This document shows, piece by piece, positions 2,256 through 45,474 of a stretch of DNA of 64,000 nt. The notes beneath the pieces are model-generated. The model ran no database searches, had not been told where the DNA came from, and saw only the letters and a list, made by a program, of their open reading frames with translations. The translations under genes were made by a program, and so were the position numbers. Source of the stretch: Mesodorylaimus sp. YZB2_4 (taxonomy: Eukaryota > Nematoda > Enoplea > Dorylaimida > Dorylaimidae); contig JASANH010000389.1 of NCBI GenBank assembly GCA_030248295.1, forward strand, positions 78,780 to 142,779. The letters are read 5' to 3'. The number at the start of each line of letters is the position of its first letter. Within the stretch, counting starts at the first letter, position 1.

Positions 2256-5200
2256 CTACTTGATCATCTGATAAATGGCCAATGTGGGGAAAACGACCAC
2301 CTCAAAAATTGAAATAGCGCACAAATTCAACCAGAATCCAATGTTTGCAAAAGTGTCGGAGACCAGTTGCAGCATCTAAAGAAAATCTTGCTATGAATGG
2401 CTGGACTGCTGCGATAAAGCCTACTCACCGTATACTTCGCGTATCCAACAACACGGGTACTGGTCATAACCCCGTAATATATATCCACTCGACTGTGAGT
2501 TTTCCTGCAGTAAATGTCGATTTCAATTTCGATTGCGGAATTAAAAACAAACTCTCCAACCTACTTCAGTTTTTCTTTACAGGATTCCAAATTCAGCCCT
2601 GATTTCCCTTCACACGTAGACGGCTAAGGAAAGGCTATCAATTTTGATCTCGCCTCCCTCATGCAAACGCTGCAAAACCTACCATGAAGCTGGGCGATGG
2701 CCAGGCTGCTTTCGTCTGTTCCACGTTGTACATGGTGGAGCTGTAAAAGAGACCAAGATACAATGATGGTCGTATTTCATTCATCAGATGGTCCATACCT
2801 GCAAGACGGCTTGCACTGACAGTTGGACGTGCTGATGTAATCTGCTGCCCTGCTTGCAGCATCGTCAACACACGCTTCTTAAAAATCCATGGTTGGGGAT
2901 CACCAAAAACGCTAAAGATCAACCATTTCCTACTTTGAGTAATATTGCAGTGCACTCCTCCTTTGGGTAGTGGGTAGCGCGGGTCTCCGCACGAGCACAA
3001 ACTCACGACCATCTGTTGGTAGCAACTGGCCATGCATGTCTAAAATGATGGGGTGTGAGGCGTGGAGTTTCCAATTATAAAAGCTAGATACTTCAATAGA
3101 ATAAGATTTATTGGTGTAAAAAGTTTCTCCTTTAGTCGTTGTATTCGTGGAACAGGCTTTGTATGGCGCTCCTGGCAAGGTCACCTTTGTCTGGAACGAG
3201 AAAATAAACATACGTTTCAAATGTTGTACCTAAATTTACTTTTTTGATCGAAAAACTGTAGTATTCGCCAGAAGAGCAAGTGATTCCAGCCATGGCCATA
3301 ACGGGTTGCTCGTCAGGATCGTGAAATAACAGTTTGTATCCACTGCTCAGAATGAATGGCAGAAAATCCGAAGAGGGCATGTGGAATACCAATTTCAGTC
3401 CTAACTTTTGGCCAGCCCTTCGTGAAAAATGTGTGTTTGCAGTGGGATTGAACGTGAAGCAGTTACCGTAACTGGGGTCCAGGAACATTCGCATCTCTCT
3501 GGAAAAGTTAGGTATACTGTAACAATGAGCATGCTACCACTGGGGGTCAATTTGTGCCTTACTGGGAAAAATTGCATTTGCGATCTCCATATTTGCATAG
3601 AACAACGAATTCGTCCATTTGATATCCAAGGGAGGAAAGTACAGTGCTGTTCAAGTTCAATTCACTGATAAGGTAGGGCAGCGAGTCCTCCATTTGACTT
3701 GCCCAGGGCATAGTGTCAGAAAGCTTTGACGGCTAAAAAGCACCATATTTTGCTGTAGTTTTCCGTCTAGTCGCCCATACACTGTATCTTACAAAATGTC
3801 ACGTTGATTAGGCAGGGGGTACTTACCATGGGAATGCTTAGGTTACTTGACAGCTCTGCTTCCTCTGGTGGCAGTTTCCTCTGTGGGTCCTTTTCTGTTG
3901 TGGCCATGTCTCTGGCCGGTCCTGCAGTTGTTACGTGGTTGTGATTGTCGTAGTTTACAGCACTCGTAGTAGTGGCCAAGGAGTTCAGAGCTGGTTTAGT
4001 AGCGTGAGGTGATGATGTTTTTAAGATCTCGTGAGGTTGATCCAGTGGCACCTCCTGTTTTTTCAAGGGTGTGGATGGTAGAAATGGGGCAACCGACTCA
4101 AGCTCTGTTAGAGGAAAGGTCTGTGGAAAAAAGAAGCTTTTGTTTGTCATGGGAATAAGCTCATTTACTGAAATGCTGGCATTCTGTGATAGTTCAGAAC
4201 GATTTGCAGTTGTGGCGATTGGCTGAGAAATGTAGGCATGATCAGTCATCTGCTTTTGCTGGCTTTCCGTACTGGGTGGGGACCATGATGGGATTGGAAG
4301 TGTGGATGTGTCAGATGTAAGGTCGCCTGGTAGTGAAATGCTGGTAGCGGCTCGCGCTATGTGTGCAGGTGGTGTCGCAGTTAACGCCATAGCTGATGCA
4401 TGGGTACTACTGTTCGAGCTGTCTGCTGACTCTCCTGATAATATTTTAGGAGACAGCTGTTCGGTTTCTTGTAATGATAAAGTTGATACGAGCGTTTCCT
4501 CCCCCAAAGCAGTTGGATCTTCTGTTCCAAAGGCTAACGACACGGAAAACACGATTGGCTCATTTTTTGTAATTTCAAGGGGGAGTGTCATTCTAGACTG
4601 TTCCAAATGAGCCATTTCAGTTATGACTGTGACTGGCGGCAGCTCACGCGGCGAACTACGCGAGATTAGGGAGCCCACTTTGGTAGATAAATGTTCATCA
4701 AATCTTTCAAGACTCGGGTAATTGTTGTTGGTGGTTGGCGATGCAGCTTGAGGACTAACCATGTCCCGTAAATCGGTGGTGACATGCGGCATAGGCGCGT
4801 GGTCGGGTATTGAATTGCGTGATTTAACTCGTGTTCTTGTAACGTCAGGAGTACTTGAAGCAGTCTCGGTTTGTGCCTTCGTTTCTCTATCTGATTCGAT
4901 CACTCTGGCTGGTGAGGCACTTGGATTTGGTGACGACTGCTCTATTCGGCGGGGCAGTTGCTCAGTAACCGAGTCTTTTGATTGTGCATTTGAAATAAGT
5001 GTGCTGACTGACCCAAGAATGGTTGTGGTCAAAGGTTCCTGTTCTCCCTTAGGAATGGTTGCAGAAGAGGTTGCCGGGGTGGAGGGCCACGTTTTGACGT
5101 GTGTCAGTGGTGATGGACCAGACACTGAATAGGTCAAATCAGAGCTTGGTATTGACTTGGTCGCCCCAGAAATTGTGGTTTTCGTTGCACTTTGATCGCT

Positions 5201-8200
5201 TGAAACATTTTCAGAGAACGAGGTTTCTAGAGACGACAGGGACGACATAGCCTCTTTTGCTGTCACCATTGCCTCTGTTTCACTTTTTCGACCATCGTCA
5301 AATGCTGTAGTCAAAACAAATTCTTCAGAAGTACTGGCTGCACGATTAGTAACTGTCGTTGCATTTATCATTGAACTTGAAGTGGTGATTGAATTTTGCT
5401 TCAATGATTCACTCGCAAACTGCGAAGACATGCCTGCTGACATCAGATGGCCAGAGAATCGTCTTTCCAGGTCAACGCTTGCGGAATGGTCAAGCGGGCC
5501 TGGGGTCGAAGCTGTGGTTCCCACCATTTCAGTTTTTGTCTCTACATACTTCTGTGCCTCGCCTTTAGTGCTAAGAAGAGCCTGCAGGTCCGTACGTTGG
5601 CTTGTCTCAAGCGGTTGACCTGAGGCTTGGTCGATACTGATTGCGACCTGGTTCGACGAAAAGTCAGCTGTCTGCAAGGCAGCGCTGTGTGCTTTCTCTG
5701 GAACTCTAGTTGTGACTTGTGCGGCAGTCTGGCCGAGCATATTCGTTTTAAACGTACTGATTCCTGCACTAAGAAGAGTCGTTTGAGAGGGCAGCTCCAG
5801 GGGGTTTGCAGCAGGGGTTCGTTGTTTCACGATTCTAAAGGAGCGTGATGTTGAAGTAGACAGTAACTCTTCTGTGGTATAACGGACAGGCAGCGTATCG
5901 TTTGGCATAGATGTCTCTGAAAACTCAGTAGTAGCAAGACTAGCTATTCTGTCAGTCTGCCTTGCTGTTGTTGTTTTAAAACTTTCAGCAGTCTCGGCAA
6001 AGGTGGGCAATTCTATGGGGATGGCAGCACGAGTTCTCAACTTCCCTAATCGTTTCGGTGGGTGCGTTGTGGTCGTTGAGTGTACTAGGTTCCCTTCAGT
6101 CTCTATTGTAACCCCTAGTTCCCTAGTTGAGGTCGCTGCGCTGGTTTCAGGCTGCTCTGGGAAACTGCTTTCTATGCTCGCAAATGAATTGGCCATGCCT
6201 GTTATCTCTGGAGTGGCAGCAGAAGATAAAGCTTGAGCAGCTGAGCTTGGAATGACTTTATTTCTGCTGGTCATACCTCCTTCCAGTCCTGTATTACTAA
6301 CTTGACTCTGTTCAGTGTTGCTGCTCAAAACATCTTGAGGCTCTCCTGAAGATGCTGAGCTCGTTGTGACAGAGTTTGATATGGTCTCGCCTAAGGTAGA
6401 ACTGGTTTTCAGCAATGGGGAGGGGGTCATGGGCGCTATTACAGGAATTGGAGTGGGAGACCTTAGTTTTCGGGCCCTCCTTGAGGATAAGGTAGGGGTT
6501 GACGTTGACGTAGACAAACTTGTTGCTTCCTCCAAGGTTGACACACTCGTTCTTACAGTTTCTGCAGTTGATGGTAAGGGTGCCGAGGGCTGTAGTTTCA
6601 TCGTGTGGTCTGGGGTTATGGTGATAGGCGAGAATTCCTTACGAGTACTTGTGGTTGCGTTCAAAGCAGCAACATCGGCTGTCAAAAAAACCGAAGTCAA
6701 GATTGCTGTGTGTGATGTTGTAGAAGTGTTGGATGAAAGAAATTTACCTGTTTGCTCAGTGTCGCTTCGACTTGTCGTGCTGACATGCCCTGATACGGTC
6801 ATGGCAAAGTCTCCGTTTTGCACACTTGAGGTTTCGGTACTCAGAATACTTCCTTCCATTTGAGCGGTACTGGTACTAACTGCAGAGGAGACTGGAACTG
6901 TTTTCGCTGATCTACTTGTCTTCATGGACGACTCACTTGCAGTTGAATTATCACGGGCTGTTCTGAAGGTCATTGTGTCTGCGGCAAAAGTGGTGGTAAG
7001 TTGGTTAGTGGTGGTGATGAGGGTCTTGGTCAGGTTATCTGAGCTTCGGATAATTGTGGGTGTGCCTGTGTTTGTTGCAATGGTGGTAATGGCTGGTATT
7101 GTGGCCGCGATAGGAATAGCAGGAGTTGGTGTAGTGATTGAGACCCAAGTAGTGGCAGCTGGCATTCTTGTGGTTGCGGGGGTCACTGTAGTGCGAGGTA
7201 GAGCTGAAGTGCTGGAGGTCGTACTTGTGGTAGGCAGAGATGTAGTGGTGGTAGCTGGAAATGTTGTTGTGGGGGATACCATGATAGTGGTAGCTGGAGC
7301 TATAGTAATAGAGGTCATTTCGATGGCAACTGGAATTGTAGTAGTGGAGGTCACGGAGTTGGTAGTTGCAGTTGTTGCAGTAGGGGAGGTCACTGTGGTG
7401 GCAGGTGCTGTTGTAGTGATGGAGGCCCTAGTGGTGATAGTTAAAGTTGTTGTAGTGGTGTGGGCCCCAGAGGTGATAGCTGGAGTTGTTGTAGTGGTGG
7501 GGGCCCTAGCGGTGGCAGCTGAAGTCGTTGTAGCGGTGGAGGCCCTAGTGGTGGTAGCTGGAGTTTTAGTGATGGAGGGCACTGTAATGGTAGCTGGAAT
7601 TGTTGTAGTAGTGAAGGTAACGGAGGTGGTAGTTGGAGTTGTTGCAGTGATGGAGGTGACTGTGGTGGCAGGTGCATCTGTAGTGATGGAGGCCCTAGTG
7701 GTGATAGTTGGAGTTGTTGTAGTGGTGGGGGCCCTAGTTGTGGTAGCTGGAGTTGCTGTAATGGTGAAGGCCCTAGTAGTGATAGCTGGAGTTGTTGTAG
7801 TGGCAGAGGTCACTGCGGTGGCAGGTGGAGTTGTAGTGGTGGAGGCCCTAGTGGTGGAGGTTGCTGGAGTTGTGGAGGTCACTGTGGTTGCAGATGGAGC
7901 TGCTCTAATTGTGGAGCTCATTGAGGTGGTTGGCGGATTTGTATTGGTGGAGGTCACGGAGGTGGTAAGTGGTATTGTCGTGGTGGTGGAGGTCGTACTG
8001 GTCTCTAGGGAAGTAGTCGTAATCGTAGTAGTTGGGACAGCCGTCGTTATGATTGTGGTAGTTGAAACATTGCTGTAAATCGTTGGCAAAGTTGATGAAG
8101 TGGTTGTCGAACCTACTGCTTCGCAAGCAAAAGTTACATATTAACTGCAGAAATGCAGGTCAGGGAACACAAGACAAAAACCACATACCTAGCACAATGT

Positions 8201-11200
8201 CTTGGTCCACATAAACCACAATGCTAGAGCATGTTGACCGAATTGCCCAACAACGATGGACCAGTGTTTGGTTAATAAAGGTGTCAATGTATGTCCAGTT
8301 CCAAAGCTCGAATGCCTCCATCTCAGCAACAGTAGAGCAAGCATCGGTGACAGCAGGCACTCCAGTCACGTTTGTATCTGACAGAAAAGATGTATCTTCC
8401 AGGTAAGCTGTCAGAGGCGCTGTGTAATTTCTTAATGGCCTGGATATATTTATTAGCTGCACAGCTGAGTCGGCTATATTTCCGCACTTGTCGACGAGAT
8501 TCCATTCTCGAATAATGATGGAGGAGCAAGCTGTCGCGTTCATTGTGTCTTGATATGTCAGGTTGTATGGCAGGCATCGTGGGTCGACAGTTGCCACAGC
8601 CAATTCAGGATCAGATCCATTTTGCGGCGAGGGGGGAGTCCATAAATCGCACAACTCTAACTGGCAACCAGTCACATTGATTACTGGAACTTCAGCAGCC
8701 AGGTCCTCGTCGATTAATCCATCGTTGTCATCGTCGATGAAATTCCGTATTTCTTCGTCGATCCATCCATCACAGTCATTATCAAGTCCATCAGGGGGGC
8801 TAGGGTCGGATGTCTTGTTGCAGAAATAGGAGCTAGGTCCAAGCAATCTCCCAGCAGTGTACGCATAAGAGCAGCTAACGCCTAATCCGTAAGCCACTAC
8901 ACTGAACATGACGCTGATATCGGGGTGCGCAATCCTGTATGAGGCCGGACTTCCATTGCAGGTGAACATATACTGATACGCGTTAAGCGTCGTCCCAGGA
9001 ATTGGATTTGGCGTTACCGCACCAAGGAAAGGTTTGTTGTTTAGCAGCAATCCAGTCGCTTTTGAACTTTCGATGACAACAGTCAAGTAGTGTTTTGTAA
9101 ACATTGGGTTGCATGAGACGATGGAGTAACTTTTACCAAACGCATCTGATGGAACCACGAATATCAGAGATGGATCCGACTCTTCGCCTACAATCAGGAC
9201 ATGAGAACAGAAAAACATCTGCGGTTTTTTGGTGCTAAGTAAAAGGGTTGTGAATATAGAACGTTTTGGTAATTGGTTCATGAATTTGTAGTCGATTTTA
9301 TGGTGCATAAAGACAATGGGTTGTGAATATATGGCGGTTTTTGTTATTTGTTCATCAATTTGTAGCATTCCAGTTATATTCTTTCAGGGCATACTTAATA
9401 TCCTCAGTTAAAATTGACTGATTTCAGAAAATACTTCGTAAGCTAATTGCAATGGCTTGCTAAGGAACGGACAGAAACGAGAATGCGGGTTTATAAAAAG
9501 AAATTGGAATCAAAGATCTCTCAAAACAGCGAGAGAAGTCGAACATAACCAAGGACCTCGTATTATCATAACCACGGGTTGCTAAAAAGAAAAATAAAAA
9601 CCTCTTTGGGCGCTTTGTGAGGTTATGTGAAGAAGATGCCGACCTTCTTACTGAGAAAAGACGACTTTCATCGTTGAAAGGTCTTTTTTGAGGTAAGTTT
9701 ATTATTTAAAATCTAGTAGCTCCTGTTAGACACGAAATACTCTAAATTCCAGTGAGGTGTACAGTAAATCCATTGCTGAAAATATCCTTAATGTACTATG
9801 GCAGCCCACAGACTCCCATACTACACTACTCATACTCCTATAATGCTGCATGTCTCTCAGTAAACGATATCTTCGTGTGATATGCTTACCTGTATACTGT
9901 GCGCTCTGCATAATATGAGCGACTAAGATTGGATTGTTTGAAGTCAGGTAGGAGTATTCGGTCTGCAGTGTTCGAACGTCTTTGTACTGTCCTGAATTCA
10001 AATTAAAGGACTCATTGTTTGAGCTTCCATGACGATGCACTCTTGTTCCATCCATTAACGCCAAAACCTTGTAAAACTCGTACGGCTTTGAGCAGTCTTG
10101 ATAATTCCAGCAGCACACTGGCTGGAATAGGAAGGAAGCTTGATGCTGAAATGGCGTTAGCGCAAATTTCATGCCAAATGTCGAGGTCGGTGGCAGCTAA
10201 CAATAAAGATATAATTATAGCGAGACGTCCAAAATCACAGTAACTCCTCCATCGCATCCCAGGTTGGCCTCCTTCAAAACCTTATGTCTCAATCTCTTTT
10301 ATTGCCAAGGTAAAACTGATATGTGAAACAAGGCGGGGTGCTTTCCTGTTTCTTCTCCATAATTATGCTCTCCTGAATTATTTTCTCCTAATCTCTTCAA
10401 AAGCGCCTTTTCTTAGGATGCTGTAGATACAAGTGGAGCCCTACGAATAGGAACGTATATACTTTATATACCGAAGAATCCGTTTACAATGCACTTGTTC
10501 AAGATTCTGGGAGTGCCCCCAATGTACCCCACCCACTTGCAGTTTATCCCCAGGTCAGTCCCTTTGAAATCGTACAGCCCAGATCAGTGGGGATGGATAT
10601 GGTATGTCTGTTAAAGGAATACATACAGTACAGGACAGGCGTACCTGATCTACCACAACATCGCAATATTTGCAATATGACGGATAAAATAAGCAGTCAC
10701 TACCCGTCAGAACTGCAACAGGCTTGCTTGAAGATATTATCATTCCAGATCTATCCGAGTAATACTGCAATTGGATAACATCCATCTCCTGCAGAGCATA
10801 TGAACTCGAAACGCCTCTTGTTGACCTAATATTCACTGCAGTTTCGTTAAATGCGGCAATAACATATACTAATGAATCCATGGAGCCATATGTAAATGCG
10901 CTCAATACCATGTATTCGGTCCCTAATACGTCAACCGGAAATAACATGGTACCATCGGCTGTTCCATTCCCAATGTGCATTGTGTAAGCTACGAAGTCAT
11001 ACGGCCCAGATATTTTTACGCCAGGACAGGCCAAAGCGTCGTCAGAAATATTGACCACGAATACTTGGGAGTTATCGATTGTTATTTGTGTTTCTTGGAA
11101 GATTGCGGAAGTTTTGACTGTAATGGTCACGACAAATGGCACTGCTGAGTCGGTTGATAGCATGAGTTGTTGTTCGGGAACGCTCTTCGCCATTGAATTC

Positions 11201-14200
11201 GGGAAAAAGGAAGTATAAAAAACTTTTCCAGTGTTGTCTGGAGCACCTAAAGGCAACGGTGGCAAATTCATAAGCAAGTTATGGCAACGGGGAAAAACAA
11301 GCCTGTAAAATGATGGCAACACCAGGGAAGTTTAATGGTTGAGAGTCGACATGTCGAAATGTCTGTAAGAATCGACACCGAATCAGCCAACATTGAAAAA
11401 TGACCCCGCTATATTATTATATACTGTATCTCGAAAGTAGATGCCATCAGGACCACGAAAACGATAATCATTTCGCGGCCAGATCAATAGTCATGGAACA
11501 GGACCCGTTCAAAAATTGTTGGTGTCCAAAAATGGGGGATTTGAAAAAGCCCTGATAGCTCAACTAATATGCAGTCGTGCAACTAACAAATGCGTGAATG
11601 AGATGAATTTTAGTGAAAATTCTTGCATGACCTTTTGTGTTCGATCCAATTTTGTCAATAATAGAAAGAGGCTGCTTTCTTCAAAACTTCAAGGGTCTGT
11701 AGAGAAAAAGGTGCTCTTTTTAATGAGGCTCGTCCGAATCAGTTTGGCCACATATTAGATGAGCTATTGAGGTTTTTTTTCAATACCCGCATTTTTTGGA
11801 CACCAAAAATTTTTGAATGGGTCCTGTTTCATGTATATTAGATCCATACCTGGAGGTGAAACGATTATCGTTTTCGGGGTCCTCATGGCATCTGCTTTCA
11901 AATTATGTATAATATAGGGGGGGGGGGGCGAATCAATTTTCAAGGTTGGCCATTTTTTGGTCGAATCAGTCGATTCTTACTGACAGTGCCTCTTAACAGC
12001 TTTCCATTCTACAGCAGGGGCATTTCGTCCGAACAAATTTTAAACTCAGCTATGGTTCACTAACAAACACTTGTTCCAAGCTTTACTGACTATGACTATT
12101 ATAGTATTCTCGGCAGTTATCATCGGCAGTTACTTAAAGTTTTCATGCATGGAACCCGGAGGAGAGACCTACCCATTTGACCTCATTGTGCAGGAATGAA
12201 ATGAATTTTTTCTTTTTATTGATTTCGAGCGATGTAAACTGATGGTAAAAATACTCTAACCAGCACGACTTTGACAGACCAGTCTCAAATACGCACTGCA
12301 GCACAAGACTGTAGGTGACCCTTTACATACGTACTGCAGGTCCCCCATCGCATACGGGTATATGTAGTTTTGCTTAGAGGACTCTATGTAATGGACACAA
12401 CTTTACACCATGCGAATCAGTGCTTGAGGCACTTGAACACAACGTCAAACGAACATTAAATTAACTATTCCAACACCATACAGTAGCAGGGGTAGAAAAC
12501 GAAGGGAGTTGAAATTGCACATTGGCGTGCGAGCCAGCGTTGCCAGATGCAAAAATGAAAACTCGCTGCCAGGGACCTGAAAATCATCTAAAATTCCGCT
12601 GCCATATCTAAGAAATCCGCCGAAAATTTTTCCTCGAAAAAGCGATTTTTTAGCGACTAGTTTTAAATAAAACGCGGAGTAGAACAAATAGCGTTCACTC
12701 ACACATCGCCCACAATGTGCAAGTCAATTTCAAGTGGGCCATGCTAGGGGCGAGGGACACCGGAAGGGCAAGGAGACCGAAGGGCAAAACGGGACGCCCT
12801 GACGCCCCCGACCACCTTACTCTGTCTAAATCTTATGCAAAGTGTGCAAGTTAGAGCACACAATACTGAAGGATGAGGAGCCAAGGACGAGCCGATCAAG
12901 AACCTGGGAGGTACGTGTGCCTGGCAATGGTCTAAAAAATTATTGCGTTCCCTATTTCATGCAACCCCACTCGTATAGTCGACCTTTCAGATCACAACAC
13001 GCGGACAAAACTGCATCACGTCTTAGAAAAAGGGCATGCCGCTTTAAAAATGGTCGCACACAGGTTGCTGTAACCAGATTCACACCAATCCGCCAGAATC
13101 CGCCAAAAAACCCAAAATCCGCTGCTTATCCCGCTGTCGGGCAAAAAATCAGCCAGATCTAGCGGATTCTAGCTGCATCTGGCAACGCTGGTGCGAGCCC
13201 GCCTGGTGCATATTATTTTGATTGACAGTTACATATTGTAGATAGACACCGGATCAGGTCGGGTTGACCCGACCCGCCCCGAAAGTCCCTGACCCGAAAT
13301 TTCGGGCGGGTTGACCCGAAATTATAGCAGCTGAAGTTCCCTGAGATAAAAACCTTTCACAAATCCTCAGAACATGCGGTGACTTTGCTGTAAAGGTGAC
13401 CATGTGAAAAGGATGGAAGGGTTTTGATTATACGCACCCGAATTTTCATGTTTTGTTATCCCTAGTACACCTTCCAAAACAGCGTTCCTTCATAACGTTA
13501 TTTCCGACTATAGTAGTCTAATTATTTGAAAAATACCTTGGTAGATCTAGAGCGACTAAAGTCTGTCTGCTAGTCTTTAGCAAGATTTAATCAATCCAAA
13601 TAATATTGACTACTTGCATGAATTTTGCAATCAGACAGGCTATACTTGCTATTTGTAGGAATACCTATAGATATTGACACACCCAAGAATATGCATCTAG
13701 TCTTCACAAAAGGTACTGCTTACAAAGTCATATTGTGCAGGAGTCATATAGCTCGTCAGAACATGGCTACTGATGGAGGAATGTAGGGGACTAAGACTTT
13801 CTAACACAGCGAACTGTTTCGCAATTGTGACGTGAATGGTGGTCGAGGGGACTATTATTGGTGCAAATTTTTTGTGGTTTGGGTTCGGACTGAATCGCAG
13901 GCTTTTCCAGCCAGGTCCCAAGACTTTACTTGTCACATTCAGGAATCAAATGTGATTGCAGATAATCCAACGACCTGCTATCAAAGATCATCAAGTCCTT
14001 CTCAGACTTTCGCTAGTCCCACCCATTTATCAGAATTGCTAAGACTGTTAATAGGAGCTCTGAGATATCGACCTTTCCTTATGCAGAAATTACTCGGAAA
14101 ATTCGCTCATTGTCACATCTTGCAATTTGTCTACATTCTTAAAAGTTACGCAGAATTAAAACATTGTAATGCAAGGCTCTATATGTACATGCATGCATGA

Positions 14201-15469
14201 GGCAAAGTCCGCAAATCCTGGAGTTAAACAGCTATGAAAAGGTTTTTGTAACTGTCAATAGTAGAAACTAGCAAAATTGCTGTATTTTTGACCCGTTTGA
14301 CCCGATCTTTCAAAAAAGTGACCCGACCCGATTCTGACCCGGCTTGACTCGACTCGAAATTTAGCTGACCCGACCCGACCCGACCCGACCCGAATATACC
14401 CGACCCGATCCGGGGTCGAACTGTAGACACCGCGACCCGCTCATCAGTGATCTCATAGTAGATTACGGTATGCGCTGGCTCGTTAACATTTTTATGTAGT
14501 CTTGCATGACTGAAAGTCTTGAGTGATTGTCAGTGAAAGAGAACTAGGGCACCATCAGGAAATACCTCTACGTACCTTGAAACCGAAGCTCTAATTAGTT
14601 GGAAGGTGTGCCCCTGAATCAAGACCCCCCTCCCAGCGCTTGGGCTACTGTAGCGCAATGATAATATTGCGTCAGCTCCCATACAATCGCTTCGTAATTT
14701 AGTCCAAGGTTGGTGTGAGATGACGGCACAGAGGAAAACAGATAAAATTTGACAGTTCGTTGCAGCGTGGCGTGGAAGCTACTGGTGTCAACAAAATTTG
14801 AGATCTGACGCGCAGGTTATTGAAAAATTGTATGCGCTTGATCGTGAGTGGCGCGCTGGATATGTCAGAAACTTCTGAAATCTAGAACTTACTTTTCAAC
14901 GCTTGCACAGCGCGACGTTTCCGGATTAAAGGTTTTCGCTTTGAATAGTCATCAGAGATTGCGGTCAGGGACTGAGTGGGTGATTGCGAAAGATAGGACT
15001 GCCTCGGGTTGCCGCTTTGCGCTTCTCGAAGGATACGTTCGCTCTGGTTGGCCACCTACAGTATACAGAAAAGTTAGACTTATATCAGAGAATATAGGTC
15101 ACAGACTGTAGGTCTCACTACTCACTGCATTATATAATTGGGGTACAGTTTTCTTGATAGACGAGAGTTTGTAAGGATTCAGGCTGCAGATAGAGACTGA
15201 TGGAAACTCCAAACGGTCCGTGTTGATCTGAAATCAATATGATTCTTTTAAGAAACTCAACCGCCACCAAATATCCTTACGATGACAGTGGTGCCGACTG
15301 GGTATTCGAGAAAGAATATCAGCGATTGAACGAAAAATGCCAGGAAAATCGACAGACTAAGTATGATAGCAAGTGCCCAAAACGCTTTGCCGGCTTGGTG
15401 CTTCGTTTCAGCAATGACTGCTGCCGCCCGAAGACTTGATCTTAGAAACGACTGCTTCACTTCATTCAT
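2256..15469 (-). CDS. Chimeric DEG/ENaC channel with IgGFc-binding-like, Ca-loop and giant mucin ectodomain
   Basis: Likely plasma-membrane DEG/ENaC subunit. Exons, 5' to 3': 15469-15281 (ATG, TM1 near residues 30-53), 15227-15126 (EFPSVSICSLNPYKLS, the FPaVTiCNlNp block), 15055-14893 (contains RKRR), an unresolved gap, 11246-10645 and 10121 (or 10145)-9890 (IgGFc-binding-like), 9187-8189, 8112-3827 (mucin), 3732-3563, 3498-3240 (SYGNCFTFNP), 3190-3092, 3039-2934 (CMASCYQQ, CSCGDPRYPLP), 2877-2799 (CQCKPSC), 2740-2683 (AAWPS), 2623-2565, 2504-2429 and 2375-2256 (TM2, stop). Every junction from 11246 to 2256 keeps phase, giving about 2,390 codons, plus 151 before the gap. Family members are normally 500-700 residues. 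The insertion lies between the post-TM1 block and the YGNC block, that is, in the finger region. The cytoplasmic tail after TM2 is only a few residues. The TM1-to-IgGFc link is inference; the mucin-to-DEG/ENaC link is supported by phase and by the need for a TM1. Confidence 0.72.
2259..2375 (-). other. TM2/pore exon of the chimeric channel
   Basis: The last coding exon, read in phase 0, gives LVSDTFANIGFWLNLCAI and then SIFEVVVF. It aligns with the DEG/ENaC pore segment LLsDIGGqlGLwLGaSilsifE. The pore-mouth Asp and the TM2 Glu are kept. The G-G pair after the Asp becomes F-A, and the G-x-S selectivity filter becomes N-L-C. The acceptor is TTCTTTAG at 2376-2383, and the stop TAG follows at 2256-2258. 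I see no AATAAA close downstream. Confidence 0.65.
3827..8112 (-). other. Mucin-like Thr/Ser-rich exon of the chimeric channel gene
   Basis: A single 4,286-nt open exon (1,428 residues). The first third (about 8112-7000) is an irregular Thr-rich tandem array built on units such as TTTTPATTTRAP and TTTTTPTITTRASIT, expected to be densely O-glycosylated. The rest is Ser/Thr-rich, less repetitive, and punctuated by four basic motifs of the form R-x-x-K-x-R-[STN] followed by a Pro-containing tail. The acceptor is GCAGTAG at 8113-8119; its first two bases complete a Gly codon begun by the upstream exon. The donor is ATG|GTAAGT at 3821-3827, in phase 0. If the donor were not used, the frame would stop at 3767. 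This is an extended extracellular stalk in the family sense; its function here is unknown. Confidence 0.75.
8189..11246 (-). other. IgGFc-binding-like, acidic Ca-loop and HYR-like ectodomain exons
   Basis: Exon 11246-10645 carries the start of an IgGFc-binding-like domain (GKVFYTSFFPNS, then FVVTITV, VLTGSDCLFYPSYC). Exon 9890-10121/10145 carries the continuation (KVLALMDGTRVHRHGS). Exon 9187-8189 carries DPSLIFVVPSDAF and the end of the domain, then two adjacent acidic loops (DNDCDGWIDEE and DDDNDGLIDED) resembling thrombospondin-3 or EF-hand calcium loops. Two segments resembling HYR-type modules follow (REWNLVDKCGNIADS, and a second Cys-rich one near the exon end). Splices: donor CAG|GTACGC at 10641-10644, donor CAG|GTAAGC at 9884-9889, acceptor TTGTAG before 9187, donor GTATGT at 8183-8188. 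Two in-frame acceptors 24 nt apart (exon start 10145 or 10121) cannot be separated by eye. Domain names rest on motif resemblance. Confidence 0.6.
11370..11990. mobile_element. Foldback/MITE, short relative of the long-TIR element
   Basis: The left arm begins CTGTAAGAATCGAC and the right arm ends GTCGATTCTTACTGACAG. Further inverted blocks are AACGATAATCATTT with its reverse complement, and GGACCCGTTCAAAAAT with ATTTTTGAATGGGTCC. The arms are about 200 bp and the whole is about 620 bp. The sequence matches the arms of the element at 16745-19052. It lies in an intron or gap region of the chimeric channel gene. Confidence 0.6.
12524..13200. mobile_element. TIR element with GCGTTGCCAGATGCA ends
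   Basis: The left end has GCGAGCCAGCGTTGCCAGAT near 12528. The right end has ATCTGGCAACGCTGGTGCGA near 13170, the inverted copy. About 675 bp, with only weak internal ORFs. Class unknown; non-autonomous DNA transposon inferred. Confidence 0.5.
13240..14435 (-). repeat. Interspersed element with CGGGT-type subterminal repeats, copy B
   Basis: Reverse-complement copy of the element at 870-2005. It starts at GACACCGGATCAGGTCGGGT and ends in a run of CCCGACCCGACCCGA near 14370-14410. It sits in the large unresolved intron of the chimeric channel gene. The 79-residue ORF at 13697-13936 lies within it. Confidence 0.6.
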
Positions 15470-16740: not shown

Positions 16741-16744
16741 TGTT

Positions 16745-19052
16745 TGTAAGAATCGACTCCGAGTCGGCCAACCTTGAAAAATGACCCCCATGTATTATTA
16801 CATATCTCGAAAGTAGATGCCATAGGGACCACGAAAACGATAATCATTTCACGGCCAGGTCACTATTCATGGAACAGGACCCGTTCAAAAATTTTTGTTG
16901 TCCAAAAAATGTGGGTTTCGAAAAAACCCTTATAGCTCGACTAATATGCAGTTGAAAAGATTCGGGCGCAGCTCATGAAAAAGAGCACCTGTTTCTTTAC
17001 AAACCCATGATATCTTGCATGAAACAGCCTTTTTCTATAATTGACAAAATTGGATCAAACACAAAATTTCATGCAAGAGTTTTCACTGAAATTCATCTCA
17101 TTCATGCATTTGCGCGGAAAAGCACTTTATTTTAAAGTGATTTATGTAAAAAGATATGGGCTTTCAAATAAGACTATCCGCGACAAAAAATAAGTGGATC
17201 GGAGATTGTCACGACCCGTCCGAACACAAAAACAACCTACCCGGCGCGCAAATTTCAAAATTCCCGCACTTTTTTTCGGTCGTCTGCTGTGAGCGCCGGC
17301 GGCTGCTCCTCAAATTATCTCTGCTTAGCGATTTTGACGTTTTGTTTTTCTTGATTAGGAGTGTACAATCAATACTTTCGTGTACAGAAAGTTTGTGTTG
17401 TTAAGGTGCATTGTAATGTAATAAGAAGGCTTATCGTCGGATTTGCGAATTGTGGTGTTATTGCCGTTGCCATCGCCTTATTTCGACAATACATACTGTA
17501 TTGCTGATGGTGATTTCATCGATCGGTATTTACTTTTCCTGCAACTTGTATGATGGAATAAAAGTCCTTATGTACTGATTCTCTGCGTTTTAGGGCTGCA
17601 GGATGTGCAAGAAACAGCACCTGTGCTGTAGTAAAACGGATTCCAAGTCACTTGGACGGTTTTCAGCCATCAAGACCAGACCGACAAGCGAGAAGAGCTC
17701 AATCTTAATCATCATTTGGCCTATTACCATATCGACTCTGTCCTCAATCGATGAAAATATGCCCGCTAATGTCTTCGATCAATGCAAAACGAACTTTCGG
17801 TTGAATTTGATTTCTGGGTTTTAATATCTTTGTTGAACCGCGCTATTATTTATTCAATGTATTGGATTAATGCCATTTCTTGTGTCATCTCACGTTCAAT
17901 CATCTGAAACACAAATTAATACAAAGCGAATACTGGGCTGGCACAACACGAAATTTACAATATAGCGATATGCTATGACGCCTGACAAAGTCATATATAT
18001 AGATAATTCTTCTCCTACCATCAAAAGCCCCATGAACCATACAGCAAGATGTCTTAGAACGCAAAACAAAATATTGAAAATGGTAATCACTAATTTGGCA
18101 CGCGGCTCCTACTTTGCTGTGAGTAGATGAGGGAACATATTCGGCATTGCTGGAGAAACACATTCTTGTCAATAATAAAATAGCCGCCAAATTAATCCGT
18201 ATGCTGGAATCAAATTCAAAAGACCGTTCCAATTTGACTCGGCAGCTCCATGAAGCAAAAAAATTTCTTTGTCTTGAACTTCGAACCCATCTAGCAAATT
18301 TTGTCCAAAAGCCGAGGATCGATGTATGAAATAAATAATAACCGTCCGAAATCTGCATTTTTGCGGAAATTTTAGTAAAATGTAGACAATGTGAGAAGAG
18401 CAAATATTTTCAACAAACGAAAATATCGAAAAGCACACATAATCAATCCAAATAAAACTATTGCATTTGTTTAGCAAAGATATTTGAGGAGCGGCCGCCG
18501 GCGCTCACAGCAGACAACCGAACAAAAAGCGCGGGAATTTCGAATTTTGCGCGCCGATTAGGTGGTTTTTGTGTTCGGACGGGTCGTGACAATCTCCGAT
18601 CCACTTACTTTTGACGTAGATGGTCTCATTTGAAAGCCCATCTCTTTTTACACATATCACATTAAAATAAAGTGCTTTTTCGCACAAATGCATGAATGAG
18701 ATGAATTTTAGTGAAAACTCTTGCATGAACTTTTGTGTTTGATCCAATTTTGTCAATTATAGAAAGAGGCTGTTTCATGCAAGATATCATGGGTTTGTAG
18801 AGAGAAACACTTTTTTTTTATGAGCTGCGCCCGAATCTTTTCAACTGCATAGTAGTCGAGCTATAAGGGTTTTTTCGAAACCCACATTTTTGGACACCAA
18901 AAATTTTTGAACGGGTCCTGTTCCATGAATAGAGACCTGGCCGTGAAATGATTATCGTTTTCGTGGTCCCCATGCCATCTACTTTCGAGATATTTAATAA
19001 TATAGAGGGGTCATCTTTCAAGGTTGGCCATTTTTTGGTCGAATTAGTCGAT
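16745..19052. mobile_element. Long-TIR DNA element, ~2.3 kb, no transposase seen
   Basis: Arms of about 560-590 bp at 16745-17330 and 18490-19052 are inverted copies. Paired blocks include GCCAACCTTGAAAA with TTTCAAGGTTGGC, GTGGATCGGAGATTGTCACG with its complement near 18590, and GAGCGCCGGCGGC with GCCGCCGGCGCTC. The centre (17330-18490) is AT-rich and has only short ORFs, so the element looks non-autonomous or decayed. The same arms form the smaller foldback at 11370-11990. The right end abuts the palindrome at 19056. Confidence 0.65.
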
Positions 19053-19055
19053 TAA

Positions 19056-38477: not shown

Positions 38478-41151
38478 ATGAATGGAACCGATCACGATAA
38501 AATACTTCAAATATTTTTACAGCGTTTCGATAAAATCGAAGCGCGAATTTATTCAATGGAAGAACACCTGAGACCGTTTGGTCTACAACCAACATTGACC
38601 AGAGGTATGCCGTGTCAAGTGTGGCAGAAGCAGTGTGACAGGGTTTCTGTTTAGGCAGACTAGTGCACGAGCTTGCGGACAACGTGTCTTCCTTGGTCGG
38701 ATTGAGAGAAGCAATCACCTGGCGTCGAAGGTCAATCAAGTACACTTGGGCCACGTTATTGTGTCTGGGCCTCGTAGCTACCACATATTATATTTATAAT
38801 ACAACGAAGGAATATCTGGCCAATCCGACCGCCACAAATGTGAGTTATATCTGGAATATTTGTTTGGCTGTGCGTAAAGTGTGTATACCAGCCCGAGAGG
38901 GCGAACCCAATTCGGACCCAGGAGACGCTACAGGGCAATGGTATGTTGGAATCGCGAGTAATTTTGTCGTTTCAGTGTCTACAGTACAGGAAACATGGAC
39001 TAGCCCCGTGACGCTTTCTTGCTGTTTCACTTCCGCCAAAGACGAGGTATCGAGGGTGGGTCTTTATAGCTACAGAAAAATGTGTAATCCTGACTAGCAC
39101 GTAACGCTTTTGTCTCAAAGGACATGGAAAATGGGTTCCATAAAACCCAAGTGTAAATGCTAAAAAGCTGTTTGTACCATTGAACGAGCTAGTCTTAAAA
39201 CGAAATGGCAACTAGTTGGAACGGGATGATCACCCAGACGCATATAAAACTAGCGCGAAAGCGGAAGTCATCCAGACAACAGTCAAACTGATGAACTGGG
39301 TAAAAACTGATGCGAATTCTCTCGCTGGAGGTGATGTCGGTCTGATTAGCTTGAATGCTTTGACACTTGTGAATAGACCTAGTAGTTGGCATACAAAACG
39401 CGGCATACAAACAACGTCGGACTTTCGGCACCGGAGGTTTCTTTGATGAATTATATATTTGTATATATATCGATATTTATATTAATCGATATTAATCCCC
39501 CCTTTCCCGGGGGGACATTCCACCTTACTATTGGGGAACTTTTGCACCCCCCCGTACTGGGAAAGGGGTTCAATCCATCGCCCCCATACTGGCGAACTCG
39601 GATACCGTCATCAGATCTTCGATGACTGCTATCCTACCCGTGCTCAGTTAGTCGAGCCGGGCTAAACTCTGACACCTCTTATCGATTTATATTCGAAAAA
39701 GAGCGCCGCCACACATGGTATAATCGACCATGCATGAATGGAACCCAAATTCGAAACCCTGCTGATATTTAGCCACTCAACTACTTCTAGCCGGAGCTGA
39801 TTTCGTAGCTTCTTGTGTTTCCAGTTGCGCCCCGAGGAGGCAATCAGCGAGGGACATGCTGAACTCGAAAAGTTTCACCAGCCCAAGTTTCAGCTTTACA
39901 AAAGTTTTGTTTTAGGTGGAGTTGCAACGAAAGGCTGAGTATGAGTATCCTTCGCTGGTACTGTGCCCCGGCGCCTGGGTCGATACTGATAAGGCACTGT
40001 TCAAAGGTCTGTCACTGGATGCCCTCAAGTATTCCCTGGCATATCTGGACAACTACGCAGTGGACGACACAGTCAATATCAGCGAGGCCCGTGCCCAGTT
40101 TTACCGATTCTATGACACAAATAACTACACCTGTCTTCTCGAATACTACCGTGATATGGCCATTGACCTGACACCAGCCAATTCAATCCTTGCTTTCGCC
40201 ATGAGCGCTTCATCCTCGTACCTGTGCACTGGCTGCGTCGATGTTTCGCCAGTCGAAAAAGTCATCGTGGAAGATTCGCTGTGTTACGCATTTTCGTTGA
40301 AAGCAGCTGACGCAAAGCACTTTCGAACTTGGTCTACAGCCCCTGAAGTATACATAAAAATACAGGATTTGACACGTGGCGTAGTCAAGGTGTCTCCGAA
40401 TTGGAAGGCTTATTTAATGGGCGATAAACATTTGACGCAGCCTAATTTCCCGTCCATAACTGTGGAGCCTTTTTCAGTCACTACCCTAAAAACCAGCGCC
40501 CAGAGATTCGTCACGTTGGGTGTAAACGGTTTGCAATGCTTGGAATCACGTCTCGTAGAGGCTAATTATTCAGCCGAAAGATGCATTGTCAAATGCTTGC
40601 ACAAAATATTCAACCAAGCATTCAACTGCAGCGTTTTTACGTATTCTGCAAACGATGATTTCAGATCACATTTGCATTATTGCAACTATTTTGAAAATCT
40701 TCCTGGAACGAACAGAAATTTCTTAGATTTTTTTGCAGAAAATGAAACTGATCTGATCGGATCGAAAGAAGGCGAAAATTGTATTAAAATATGCCCTCAC
40801 ACTTGTGACAGAACTATTTACATATCAACATTCGATTCAAAATTTACAATAAATTTGGACACGTACAACATTACTGGCTTTGCCCGCAGCCGCAACATGT
40901 CATTCGTTGCGGTCAATTTGGACAACACAGCCATATCACAAGGCGGCATTCTTACATTGACTGAAGTGAGCACCTTCTCATTCAGCACACTGGTTAGCAA
41001 TGTTGGCGGCACGTTGGGCCTGTTCGTAGGCGGAACCATACTGACCATATTCCAGGTGGTGTTGTTCTTGGTCAACTATGCACTGGATATGAAGGAACAG
41101 AAGAGACGCAAAGAGAGACAGACGGTTGGCCGCCACGCGTCAGTGATATAA
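38478..41151 (+). CDS. DEG/ENaC-like channel, tandem paralogue A
   Basis: Exons 38478-38604, 38655-38839 and 39916-41151 (phases 1 and 0) encode 515 residues. Residues 1-42 form a charged, heptad-like helix. SSLVGL (54-59) sits where the family has the S-x-HG gating motif, followed by TM1 (about 73-90) and YPSLVLCPGAWVD, matching the post-TM1 FPxVTiC block. The ectodomain has an LCYAF block, N-glycosylation sites and Cys pairs (CIVKCLHK, YCNYF, CPHTCDR). TM2 contains NVGGTLGLFVGGTILTIFQ at about 466-484. Compared with ASIC/ENaC this reads HG to VG, pore-mouth Asp to Asn, G-x-S filter to GGT, and TM2 Glu to Gln. Ligand or gating mode is unknown. First of three same-strand copies. The 1,076-nt second intron is much longer than in copy B. 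Confidence 0.82.
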
Positions 41152-43213
41152 TGTACTGTGGTGTTTTCAAAGAAGACGCAAGCATGGCTGTACATTTAGT
41201 CAGACGTATGATCTTGTACAGAAAATCAATTTTTAGTCAGATTCACCAGTGTGGGTGCAGAACTTCAAAGGGACCACGCCCAGGGGTAGTAATCCATGGG
41301 GATATAAGTAAGTATTGAAGGTGCAATACACTGGCAGAAACAGCTGTAACCTAGCATAGCAGGCGGTGAAGAGAATGTCGGCGGGAAAAAGAAAGAAAGG
41401 CAAGGCTCGCGACTATACCTGCGGCTGAAACATCAACCTGAGGGACTGACGTTTTCCAACCAAGGGAGATCGGGTACTCTCTTCATGTGGCCATGGCCCA
41501 CCAGGCGCCGTGGTTACACAGTAACAGCAGTCTCGACTATCGGCGTCAAAGCCAGGTAAGGCACCATAAGGCTAACGGGTATCACACTTCACCATGCAAC
41601 CCGGAGAGGCTACCATGCAGAGTACTGTACAATATCATTATATGAATAGTGCTTGAGATAGTCAGGTGTGCGAAGTTGAATGAAGGCAGCTCAATTGAAA
41701 TAACGCAAGCCGTTCGCAAAGAGTGCATCCTTGATAAGGTTTGAAATATCGTAGGGTCTAATGATCGGCACTATCCCGCCTGGCCCATGTAGCCGGTCAC
41801 TGACTTCCGCCTGGCCGGCAAGTACATCAGTGACCTAAGGGCGATGGCCGACAGTTTCGCCTGGCCGAAAAAGGAATAGTACCAAATTAGTACCGCGCTC
41901 TGACGCTTGAGCAAGCTTTAGAGCACATTAATATCACATATTTGTCAAGAAACAAAAGCGAATAAATCAAATACGCGGAGGCCCCTACCCTAGGAAATTA
42001 GCGGCCGCGGTGGTGAAGTGATTCGTCATGTCTCTCCGTATTGCTTGGGAACGAGTGGCTGGACTCGTCCGGGTTCGATCCCCGGTGATGGAGGTCGAAA
42101 CCATAAACCCTCGACAGAAGCCAAACGAGGAGAGAGTCTCGGCTGTCGAACACGGACAGAGGTTACAACCCACCCGCCATTGTCCGAGGAAGCCGGTGTG
42201 CAGGTCCAGGATGCCCTCGCGTGGAGGTGCATAGGGGCAACTCGCTTAGGCGCGCAGTCTTGCTTAGAAGTTTTGGCTGCTGGCTGGCTTTAGGCAAAAA
42301 GGGGCTTCGGCCCCACAAATATTTTTCGTAAAAAACTATTCTAGAAGACTGACGACATACAGTGGCTCAAAAAAGCATTAGCCTTCATCAATAACGGCAT
42401 CATGCCTTCTTTGATCGGTATCATATCGTGGCCTAAAGAATATGCGCTTTGCACCAGCATATCAGCAAATCAGCATTGATTCTGACATATTGCCGTCTCG
42501 AGGTCGAGCCAACTCTCCTCGCTGATGAATGATCAAATCTGACCAGGTGAAGCATTGTCATGTATACTGTTGCGGCTAATGTGAGAAACTGTGCAGTTTC
42601 TGTAAATCGTTAATTTGCTTTCATGGCTAGCCTTCAGGAAGGTTGGTTATACGAGGACCAGGTAGACTAACACACTCGGCCAGGAGATGCACAATCTAAT
42701 AATCGAGTTAAAATAGCTTTTGACTCCTTTACATGGCAACTGAACATTAGGTCATGTTGCTTCTCATACTGTAACTGTACGAATACTATAACTGTTCATA
42801 TTGCTTTTTTGAATCCATTTTGCCGTTCTTCGCAGCCTGCACTCTGACTTCTTGGTACCGATGCGTCACCCATCGCCTCCGTCTTATCCAACTCCTTCCC
42901 ACAATAACATCAAATCATGTGTTTCTCTCGATGAGGCGTAGATCAAAGCAACATAAACTTATATCCTCTTTCTCATATATGTTACAGTGAAAACAGGAAA
43001 GTGAGAATGACACATTCTTTTCCCTCCCCGCCGCTACTGCCTCCGGGCTATTAGGCACACAGACGTAGAACTAAATAAACGAGATGCCGATACTAAAAAT
43101 GTGATATATACACCCGTAGATTCGGAAAGTTTCGGTCTGAGTTCTACTTTTCTTCATCGTACATACTGTTGACAGTGCGCGTTGAACTTTTATTCGGTTT
43201 ATCCGCTGAGGGA
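41152..43213. other. Intergenic region between channels A and B
   Basis: Holds a tRNA-derived SINE (about 42002-42310, head with B-box GGTTCGATCCCCGG at 42074-42087, tail core CCCACCCGCCATTGTCCGAG) and decayed repeat sequence before it. No gene seen. Confidence 0.45.
42002..42310 (+). repeat. tRNA-derived SINE (family 2), best-preserved copy
   Basis: Starts GCGGCCGCGGTGGTGAAGTG (A-box-like), followed by the B-box GGTTCGATCCCCGG and a body containing CACCCGCCATTGTCCGAGGA. That body block is shared in opposite orientation with 22815-23105 and 46750-46920. Ends near GGGGCTTCGGCCCC. Confidence 0.6.
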
Positions 43214-44843
43214 ATGGACAAAACGGACTTTACCACGGAGACTGTGAAGAATTTTCAATATTATAAGACTTTGGAAACCAGATTGTTTTTACTAGAAGAA
43301 CAATTTCGATCACTCGGATCACAGCAGCCGACAAAACGTAAGATATCAGGCATTTGGCTCAATAATTGCTGCAAATCGTGTAAATTTTAGACAAAGCTGC
43401 TTTTGATCTGGTGAACAATGTGTCAGGTATGGTGGGCCTGAAAGAAGTAGTGACTAGTCGATACATGACCATAAGGATAACGTGGGGCATACTGTTCTGT
43501 CTCGGTCTTCTGGCCACAGCCTATTACATATTTGCTACTACGCAGGAATACCTCGCAAATCCGACTGCTACAAATGTAAGATTGTGATGGAGTTTTGAAG
43601 CGCAGTTTTCTCAACTCTTCGATTCCAGGTTGAACTACAGAGGCAATCGGAATATATCTACCCGTCACTGGTCCTGTGTCCTGGTTCCTGGGTCGACACC
43701 GAAAAGGCCCTTGCAAAAGGGTTAACCAAAGACGCCCTTAAGTACGGCCTGGCTTATCTCGACCGATTTATGGTTGACGGTAGCGTCAATGTGAGCAAGG
43801 CGAAGAGAGATTTTGAAAAATTCTTTACTTCTCATAATTATTCAAGTCTCCTGGATTTCTACAAAGACGTGGCCCTCGACATCGAACCATCGCCAGGGCA
43901 AGGTGAACTGAGTGCTATGTCCACCTCCGGGTATTTTTGTGTTGGGTGCAACGAAAGCACGTCGGTCGAGAAAGTCATCGTCAGAGACCTGATGTGCTAT
44001 GCATTCTCTCTGAAGGCAGCTAGCACACGCAATTTTCGAATGTGGGACGCGGCAGCCCCACAAATTTTGGTCCAAACACAAGAGAAGTCTGATGGGGTTG
44101 GCGGAGTGACTTCGAATTGGAGAGCATATCTAATGCATGACAAGCACATCCTGCAGCCCAATTATCCATACCTGTCGTTGGAAACCTTTTCCGTCACCAC
44201 TCTTAAAACAGCAGTTCAGCATTTTTTGCTGCTGGATGACGATAATTCGAGATGTTTGAGCCAAGCCGAAGTACCCGCCAATTATACTGCTGAAAAGTGC
44301 ACACTCAATTGTTTGCACCAGTTGTTTCAAAAAACTTACAATTGTAGCGCTTTTTTCTATTCTGCTTACGACAAAGCTACCGCCCTTTCTGATTACTGCA
44401 ATCATTTTGAACAGAAGCTTCCTGGAGCGAATATATCATTTTCGGATTACATCGATAATGAAGAAGTGGCCTTGACGGAGTCAAAGGGTGGCACGGAATG
44501 CGTTGACCAGTGTCCATACCCGTGTCACAGAACCCTCTTCACTTCCACTTTGGATTCTAGATTTACCATAATGCTAGACGCGTCCAATTTCACCAGCAAT
44601 GCGCGTAAGCAAAACTTGTCAGTCATTGTAGTCGCCGTGGACAACACGGCCATATCTCAAGGCGGTATTGTAACATTGACAGAAATGTCAACATTTAGTT
44701 TTAGCACTTTGGTCAGCAATGTTGGCGGCACATTAGGTTTATTTGTTGGTGGAACAGTATTGACACTCTTCCAATTAATTTTATGGTTCGTTGAATACAT
44801 GCTAAATGCCAGCGAAACTAGGAAAGTCAGGACATCGACATGA
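43214..44843 (+). CDS. DEG/ENaC-like channel, tandem paralogue B
   Basis: Exons 43214-43337, 43391-43575 and 43629-44843 encode 507 residues and are the most compact of the three copies (introns of 53 nt). The exon structure is the same as in A and C, including the 185-nt second exon. An N-terminal charged helix (LETRLFLLEEQFRSLG), then SGMVGLKE at the HG position, TM1 (TWGILFCLGLLATAYYIF) and YPSLVLCPGSWVD follow. The ectodomain includes LMCYAFSLKA, CTLNCLHQLF, CPYPCHRT and sequons. TM2 reads SNVGGTLGLFVGGTVLTLFQ, with the same four signature changes as A. AATAAA at 44945-44950 is a plausible polyadenylation signal about 100 bp after the stop. Confidence 0.82.
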
Positions 44844-45474
44844 TTTGGTGATTTGTAATGCGTAGAATGTATCCATGTCATGTTGTGGACTATTGTTCAG
44901 GATTACGAATAATTTCGCCAGGTGACCGACCAGTAAAGAGTCTAAATAAATACTTTAACTCCCATGCAGGCACTGCATGCACATTTCATGTCACAGCTGG
45001 TGTGGGTCATCGTCTATCCAAATCGAAAGGTTTTTTACATGGCTTGTGGAATCACTGTGGAAATAAGGGGTTTTGTGTGCTGCTTTGCTTCTTGGCAGCA
45101 GAATTATCAATGCAGTGGAGGGCTCACAATAAACTCCATACTCGACGCCTTACTGCAGTACTGTGCTACAGTATGTATGTATGTATACTGTGCGCGTGCT
45201 ACATGATCCATGTGAACGTTCCACTGACGATGAGAGGTCCACCTAAGAGAACACAGAGCATACATACGTCCTAAGAATATAGAGAGACAATAAAACCGAA
45301 CTAAATGTCTAGAAAACATTTCTAAACCATCGTATGAGCCCATGAAATATCACGAGGCACATTCTCACATTACTCCGGGATACTGGGAAACTCTTGGCCA
45401 CGTGCACATTCCTTATCAATGTTCCAGTAATTCTTCAGAAAATAATACTGTACTCGAAGCATTATCCATACGTA

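Follow-up and report, generated by a model that had tools for sequence, protein, structure and literature searches.

The 64,000-nucleotide stretch of DNA analysed here (‘the window’; positions 78,780 to 142,779 of contig JASANH010000389.1 from the nematode Mesodorylaimus sp. YZB2_4) carries on its minus strand, from 15469 to 2256, a predicted gene whose 16 exons join through 15 GT-AG introns of consistent phase into a protein of 2,553 amino acids (aa) with one terminal stop. By domain and topology the product is a DEG/ENaC-family protein, though two hallmark motifs (G/S-x-S and HG) are lacking, and its channel domain is interrupted by an insertion of 2,065 aa. Exon 1 (15281..15469; this and all following exon coordinates are on the minus strand) holds the start codon, the N-terminus and the first transmembrane segment (TM1; aa 1-63), without an HG motif; exon 2 (15126..15227; aa 64-97) encodes the FPSVSIC block of the ASC domain, and was matched in 13 of 13 paralogous genes examined; exon 3 (14893..15055; aa 98-152) supplies the end of the first ASC half and a linker, finishes in phase 1, and contains an RKRR furin-like site (14912..14923; aa 142-145). 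Beyond intron 3 (11247..14892; 3,646 bp), exon 4 (10645..11246; aa 152-352) encodes the first part of an IgGFc module and exon 5 (9890..10196; aa 353-455) the middle of the IgGFc_binding domain, with exon 6 (8189..9187; aa 455-788) adding the end of that domain, two acidic metal-loop motifs (8700..8792; aa 587-617) and an HYR-like segment. Exon 7 (3827..8115; aa 788-2217) is a Ser/Thr-rich ‘stalk’ free of Cys, after which the ASC domain resumes in exon 8 (3563..3732), continues through the remaining DEG/ENaC ectodomain in exons 9-15 (2429..3516), and ends with the second transmembrane segment (TM2) and the stop in exon 16 (2256..2375), where N-L-C (2319..2327) stands in place of the G/S-x-S pore motif (positions 10′-12′).

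The ASC family profile (PF00858) matches the protein in two halves, each above the cut-off (profile positions 5-126, E 1.3e-13; 133-455, E 5.3e-46), and in a single run from 5 to 455 (E 2.1e-64) once the insertion is left out; the interruption therefore falls within about seven profile positions. From N- to C-terminus the parts run TM1 and first ASC block (aa 1-152), IgGFc_binding, acidic loops, HYR-like segment, stalk, and then the remainder of ASC with TM2 (aa 2218-2553). Hydrophobic windows above 1.6 occur at aa 25 and aa 2523 only, giving two transmembrane segments with a large ectodomain between them; as just two segments reach the threshold, an extracellular position is predicted for the insertion. 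Among solved structures the protein comes closest in sequence to ENaC beta, alpha and gamma; when it is aligned with ENaC beta, the gap at the GRIP domain is where the insertion falls, its furin-like site lying N-terminally. In ENaC, the GRIP domain sits between finger helices alpha1 and alpha2, and in the alpha and gamma subunits the first furin site is N-terminal to the first GRIP strand (from the part of PMC6197857 available to us).

The best-defined portion of the insertion is the ‘head’ encoded by exons 4-6 (aa 152-788), in which IgGFc_binding (PF17517) is complete (profile 1-297, E 1.6e-49, 169.2 bits against a gathering score of 25.6) and is followed by the two acidic loops and the HYR-like segment. 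These three exons form a symmetrical phase 1-1 module, the usual mark of a shuffled extracellular domain. NCBIfam profiles gave nothing useful for the head, and a single-sequence AlphaFold2 model of exon 6 (pLDDT 34) was not used. The stalk is defined by its composition (Ser plus Thr 533 of 1,430 residues, Pro 114 of 1,430, no Cys), so that ‘mucin’ is here a compositional label; exon 7 gave no match to protein families, and its frame stays open through 1,429 codons, against at most 316 in any of 500 order-1 Markov simulations. No EGF match was found in aa 1-803, exon 7 or the C-terminal 336 aa, and family scans of the protein returned no VWD-type domain. Within the early portion of the stalk exon (7287-7873) lie tandem repeats with units of 39 bp and multiples thereof; tandem arrays of this sort often differ in length between individuals. 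An earlier note on this DNA had proposed exon ends at 15469, 15126, 14893, 11246, 8189, 3827, 3563 and 2256, every one of which is a boundary in our model, and had named IgGFc-like, acidic-loop, HYR-like and Thr/Ser parts; these elements lie where it placed them, and the IgGFc assignment and the Thr/Ser composition stand, the loop and HYR labels being below the family thresholds.

Searches with the IgGFc family and with the C-terminal channel and TM1 parts of the window gene were run in the 145-Mb assembly, in which the window corresponds to 78780-142779 of a contig labelled C233 and match counts are lower bounds. There are at least 42 matches to the IgGFc family, at least 123 to the C-terminal channel part and at least 35 to the TM1 part; of the 14 well-known genomes that served as controls, none has a match to the IgGFc family and one (Thermotoga maritima) a match to the ASC family. 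Fourteen loci, the window gene included, were chosen for having TM1-side and channel C-side matches close together: seven form an array on C233, two lie on C1, and C114, C90, C387, C79 and C11 have one each. At 13 of these 14 loci the TM1-side, IgGFc and channel C-side exons follow one another in identical order on one strand; the locus g5 has no IgGFc match, its middle not being covered. Matches are incomplete elsewhere too, with only the last two ASC exons matched in g3 and the TM2 exon unmatched in g4 and C11. Among the 12 genes with enough of each part (g3 and g5 were dropped), pairwise distances are strongly correlated between IgGFc and ASC C-side (Mantel r 0.86), IgGFc and TM1 (0.85), and TM1 and ASC (0.86), at a permutation value of 0.0002 each; the parts have therefore been inherited as a unit. 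The TM1, IgGFc and ASC parts are under purifying selection in two close pairs, with dN/dS of 0.26 and 0.14 for TM1, 0.39 and 0.26 for IgGFc, and 0.20 and 0.10 for ASC; a further pair proved to be saturated.

What separates the IgGFc domain from the channel varies considerably within the family. A 1,461-aa open frame with 40% Ser plus Thr occupies this place in g2 and one of 1,618 aa (36%) in C114, with C79 having a frame of 2,199 aa (32%) that includes the end of IgGFc; in C1b, a paralogue that is gap-free over 7.8 kb, only about 1.1 kb lies between the two. The largest frame is that of C11 (G000:C11:1106000-1125999; L039/L040), which runs for 4,016 aa with 15% Ser plus Thr and 52 matches to the acidic-loop pattern, and consists of tandem loop-plus-HYR-like units instead of a Ser/Thr stalk; in the three units scanned, the loops are below the Pfam cut-off (E 0.013-0.034) and the HYR-like segment has no Pfam match. 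The way in which the arrangement recurs points to a genuine design that has been copied several times, and not to an accident of gene prediction; its equal part order at 13 of 14 loci lends strong support both to the single-gene fusion and to the placing of the insertion in the finger region that the earlier note had claimed.

Several further matches touch on this family. A lone TM1-side match inside the array (C233:21433-21747) is perhaps a broken or further member; weaker TM1-side or C-side matches (e.g. on C64, C12, C31, C232 and C290), for which no IgGFc match is listed, are probably ordinary channel genes. Seven 10-kb stretches (L041-L047) have an IgGFc_binding match and no match below E 0.01 to the TM1-side or channel exons, and are possible relatives of the module's source.

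The alternative to a single gene is a pair of transcription units, with a channel gene and, nested in it or adjacent on the same strand, an independent IgGFc-mucin gene. For such a pair speak the in-frame fit of exon 2 to exon 8, the length of intron 3 and the weak acceptor of intron 6. Set against these are the identical nesting of parts, which also diverged together, at 13 of 14 loci, and the compact gene C1b, where the intron between the TM1-side and IgGFc exons measures (by reading) only about 61 bp and is likewise in phase 1. Moreover, signal-peptide-like exons in intron 3, at two against a mean of 1.64 in 100 simulations, are not above chance. Leave-one-out splice scoring, with a matrix built from the model's other 14 introns and ranks taken among 922 GT and 1,061 acceptor sites, places the intron 3 donor first and its acceptor 97th, and the intron 7 acceptor 59th; the donor of exon 7 ranks fifth and has the right phase for exon 8. 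Exon 3 has only exons 4, 6, 7 or 12 as in-frame partners, exon 8 being excluded. Nested-gene and two-gene models were accordingly rejected on phase, the compact C1b and the 13 co-linear loci of 14; we regard two units as very improbable indeed, and a single-gene architecture for the family, as read from sequence, as almost certain.

The site RKRR stands seven residues before the exon 3/4 boundary and is the only RX[KR]R in the whole protein. Such a motif arises somewhere in 20.8% of 2,000 whole-protein shuffles, so that it is position and recurrence which count. Exon 3 of the paralogues is too diverged for tblastn; we therefore applied one uniform test to the interval between exons 2 and 4, requiring an AG-bounded phase-0 exon of 60-270 nt with RX[KR]R in its last 20 codons and a phase-1 GT[A/G] donor. 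Ten of 13 genes (g5 being outside the count) have a candidate of this kind, namely the window gene, C1b, g3, g4, g6, g7, C1a, C114, C11 and C90. Background windows taken from the seven IgGFc-only loci gave 10 passes in 462 at 300 bp, 15 in 196 at 700 bp, 14 in 140 at 1,000 bp and 15 in 112 at 1,200 bp; the tested genes are related to one another, and hence are not independent trials. As a sequence motif, the furin-type site expected of ENaC-type proteolytic activation is thus present in the finger insertion. Given that such a site usually precedes the insertion, the latter may turn into an ‘arm’ with a free N-terminus and not form a closed loop; an arm opened by cleavage in this way seems to us somewhat more likely than not.

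We also considered a giant, releasable version of GRIP, in which cleavage on both sides would detach the IgGFc arm, to be secreted in the manner of mucus, and would switch the channel on, as loss of the inhibitory tract does in ENaC. The GRIP position and the frequent N-side site fit this proposal, as do further basic sites in C1b, in frame just before exon 8, and a basic motif, K-x-R-x(2-4)-[IN]-P, that occurs four times in the stalk of the window gene (aa 1337, 1479, 1551 and 1885; 4800-6480, minus strand) against a mean of 0.03 and a maximum of two in 5,000 shuffles, the pattern having been chosen post hoc. However, the long stalk frames of g2, C114 and C79 showed no RX[KR]R, and the window protein has one in all; a second furin cut is thus not a feature of those genes, the arm would stay on the TM2 chain, and we consider its release improbable.

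At the other end of the protein, the TM2 of the window gene aligns without gaps to ENaC beta and to the window's three other DEG/ENaC genes (GGS, GGT) with NLC at the G/S-x-S position; the HMMER alignment places a gap at the pore motif instead, G/S-x-S being absent either way. The TM2 exon could be read in 12 genes of the family, 11 of which have the motif [G/S/N]-x-Cys: position 12′ is Cys in these 11 and Gly (as GLG) in one, position 10′ is Gly in six, Ser in four and Asn in two (the window gene and g2), and E18′ is kept in all. The HG motif, an N-terminal hallmark of DEG/ENaC channels, precedes TM1 in none of the 13 genes displayed, C11 not being covered. As the atypical pore motif is present in all 12 readable genes, a canonical Na+ channel cannot be assumed. 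That the TM2 exon was mis-called was rejected, a downstream scan for a G-x-[ST] TM2-like stretch being empty and the odd motif family-wide; a decaying pore in a pseudogene is not favoured in view of the purifying selection and the common Cys. In the part of PMC5449180 available to us, E18′ is described as essential for Na+ selectivity in ASICs, and S12′C mutants of ENaC as having reduced relative Na+/K+ permeability. The shared Cys and Glu argue for a pore that may work in altered form, or one that may work only in heteromers.

Bringing these strands together, we propose that the gene encodes a protease-opened adhesive arm on an atypical DEG/ENaC-family subunit, which we take to be the best explanation as a whole and to which, on the sequence evidence, we would give a probability of about one half. 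In this model, the finger loop at the GRIP position would be replaced by an adhesive arm made up of the IgGFc head, the acidic loops and HYR-like sequence, borne on a long and probably O-glycosylated stalk. We suggest that a furin-like protease would cut after the basic site of exon 3 en route to the surface, thereby opening the loop and leaving the head at the free N-terminal end of the chain that carries TM2, with both halves staying together. The head might then bind mucus, cuticle or another matrix glycoprotein, and load or ligand binding could pass via the stalk into the finger, there to gate or modulate a channel that is probably heteromeric and whose pore would be less Na+-selective than the standard one; tension or contact would in this way reach the finger, which ENaC too uses for protease control. 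That the tether gates or modulates a conducting channel is plausible, at somewhat less than even odds. Mucins extend by about 0.25 nm per residue, at which the stalk of the window gene could reach some 350 nm.

A number of points weigh against this proposal or mark weak spots in the gene and domain assignments beneath it. With regard to the channel, none of the 12 readable genes has an acidic residue at 21′, and mutation of G10′ or S12′ in ASICs is reported to give non-functional homomers (in the available part of PMC5449180); for these two reasons conduction is not assured. Thirty DEG/ENaCs of C. elegans have been screened in oocytes, and the EGAS subunits were among those without current above controls (in the available part of PMC10424705). 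With regard to the arm, the MopE match to the acidic loops is below the Pfam cut-off (E 0.0053), the HYR-like label comes from a single sub-threshold match (HYR_4C, E 0.12) together with a reading of the sequence, and the IgGFc region found no useful structural match among PDB sequences (best E 0.39). Within the gene model, the acceptor of intron 6 scores poorly (599th of 1,061) and marks the least certain junction, at which two AG sites three bases apart give an identical frame; splicing of exon 2 to exon 8 would be in frame, so that the gene may additionally give rise to a short, armless form. Finally, the furin-like reading of g3 is weak, with its site 17 codons from the donor, and three genes failed the uniform test: g2, whose likely exon 3 has RRPR; C387, with RRRR then AGAgtaagt and no qualifying exon; and C79, scored as a miss with its region only partly covered.

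A rival reading is that the channel fold has been kept as a surface anchor, a trimer in the membrane that would hold a mucin-like, adhesive coat, with a pore devoid of useful conduction. In its favour, Ser at 12′ and an acidic 21′ are each seen in 0 of 12 genes, HG is absent from the 13 genes displayed, and the ASIC substitutions just cited abolish function in homomers. On the other hand, the family keeps E18′ throughout and Cys at 12′ in 11 genes rather than drifting, and in both close pairs ASC has the lowest dN/dS of the three parts (0.10 and 0.20), such that we consider a mere anchor somewhat unlikely. Another reading, in line with the earlier note's idea of a channel tethered to or sensing mucus or matrix, is that of a plain sensory channel, homomeric and Na+-conducting, with a closed extracellular loop acting as an uncleaved sensor or tether; the complete ASC domain and the matrix-type modules in the loop are in its favour, yet 10 of 13 genes have a furin-like site ahead of the arm and the pore motif is atypical, which makes it decidedly unlikely. 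Of the earlier note's interpretation, the fusion and its place in the finger stand, and a tether or matrix sensor is plausible; the gene family, the furin-like site and the unusual pore had been left out of it.

The nearest named precedent for an armed subunit of the kind that we propose is EGAS of C. elegans, likewise a nematode DEG/ENaC with extra modules beside ASC (according to the available part of PMC10424705, the main text of which does not contain the terms ‘IgGFc’, ‘mucin’ or ‘furin’). The window protein is, by its modules, not an EGAS channel; it has an IgGFc head, acidic loops and a 1,430-aa stalk in place of any EGF match. ENaC alpha, beta and gamma are nearest by sequence and share an extra domain between finger helices alpha1 and alpha2, with alpha and gamma also having the furin site on its N-terminal side, as in the window gene (PMC6197857, in the part available); GRIP, however, is a small beta-strand domain, whereas the insertion here amounts to 2,065 aa of adhesive-type modules in a protein with an NLC pore and no HG. 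FCGBP and its relatives have the complete PF17517 in common with the window protein, in which, by contrast, the domain sits in a channel subunit and no VWD-type domain was found. In the MEC-4/MEC-10 touch channel, the extracellular matrix partners are separate gene products; what is shared is the broad notion that matrix and a DEG/ENaC channel act in concert, but the tether proposed here lies within the subunit itself.

Taken as a whole, the locus suggests that the finger loop of the DEG/ENaC fold, the seat of the protease-controlled domain of ENaC, can accommodate an integral arm some 2,000 to 4,000 residues long, and that about a dozen loci of a single genome bear copies of such an arrangement. 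We tentatively raise the possibility, though doubtful at this point, of a previously undescribed class of channel subunit having radiated in this nematode, with a protease-opened, adhesive arm on a stalk at the GRIP position, up to about 4,000 residues long, and a G/S-x-Cys pore. Were this so, the paralogues would be sensors of mechanical force or of contact with mucus, each with a stalk of particular length and a particular grip, and the genome would encode a set of extracellular gating springs within the channel itself. The stalk varies among paralogues and the channel core stays recognisable, and the family thus provides a natural experiment on how extracellular matrix pulls on these channels or signals to them; it also brings together naturally occurring genes with Cys at pore position 12′, at which mutants of ENaC lose selectivity for Na+.

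Elsewhere in the window, three short tandem DEG/ENaC genes (38639-52285, plus strand) are mutually 47-53% identical and have the pore motif GGT; they show no insertion in the open frames read and only distant similarity to the stalk-bearing gene. Across the whole genome at least 114 ASC matches are listed (93 of 1,086 first-look candidates having been scored), and several split ASC matches within single frames of 700-1,015 aa (e.g. C215:88704-91418 and C617:25268-27595) may be other ectodomain insertions. The window also encodes a nematode cuticle collagen N-domain. Repeats of intron 3 have further copies in the window, near 0.9-2.0 kb and near 16.7-19.05 kb; among them are inverted-repeat elements at 11360-11985 (intron 3) and 16741-19053, found at other places in the window as well. 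These resemble small DNA transposons, as do two 18-nt inverted repeats that form a pair of their own (12534-12551 with 13174-13191). Five-base CGGGT/GACCC arrays occur at 896-921 and 14367-14412, and the stretches neighbouring them are repeated between intron 3 and the first 2 kb.

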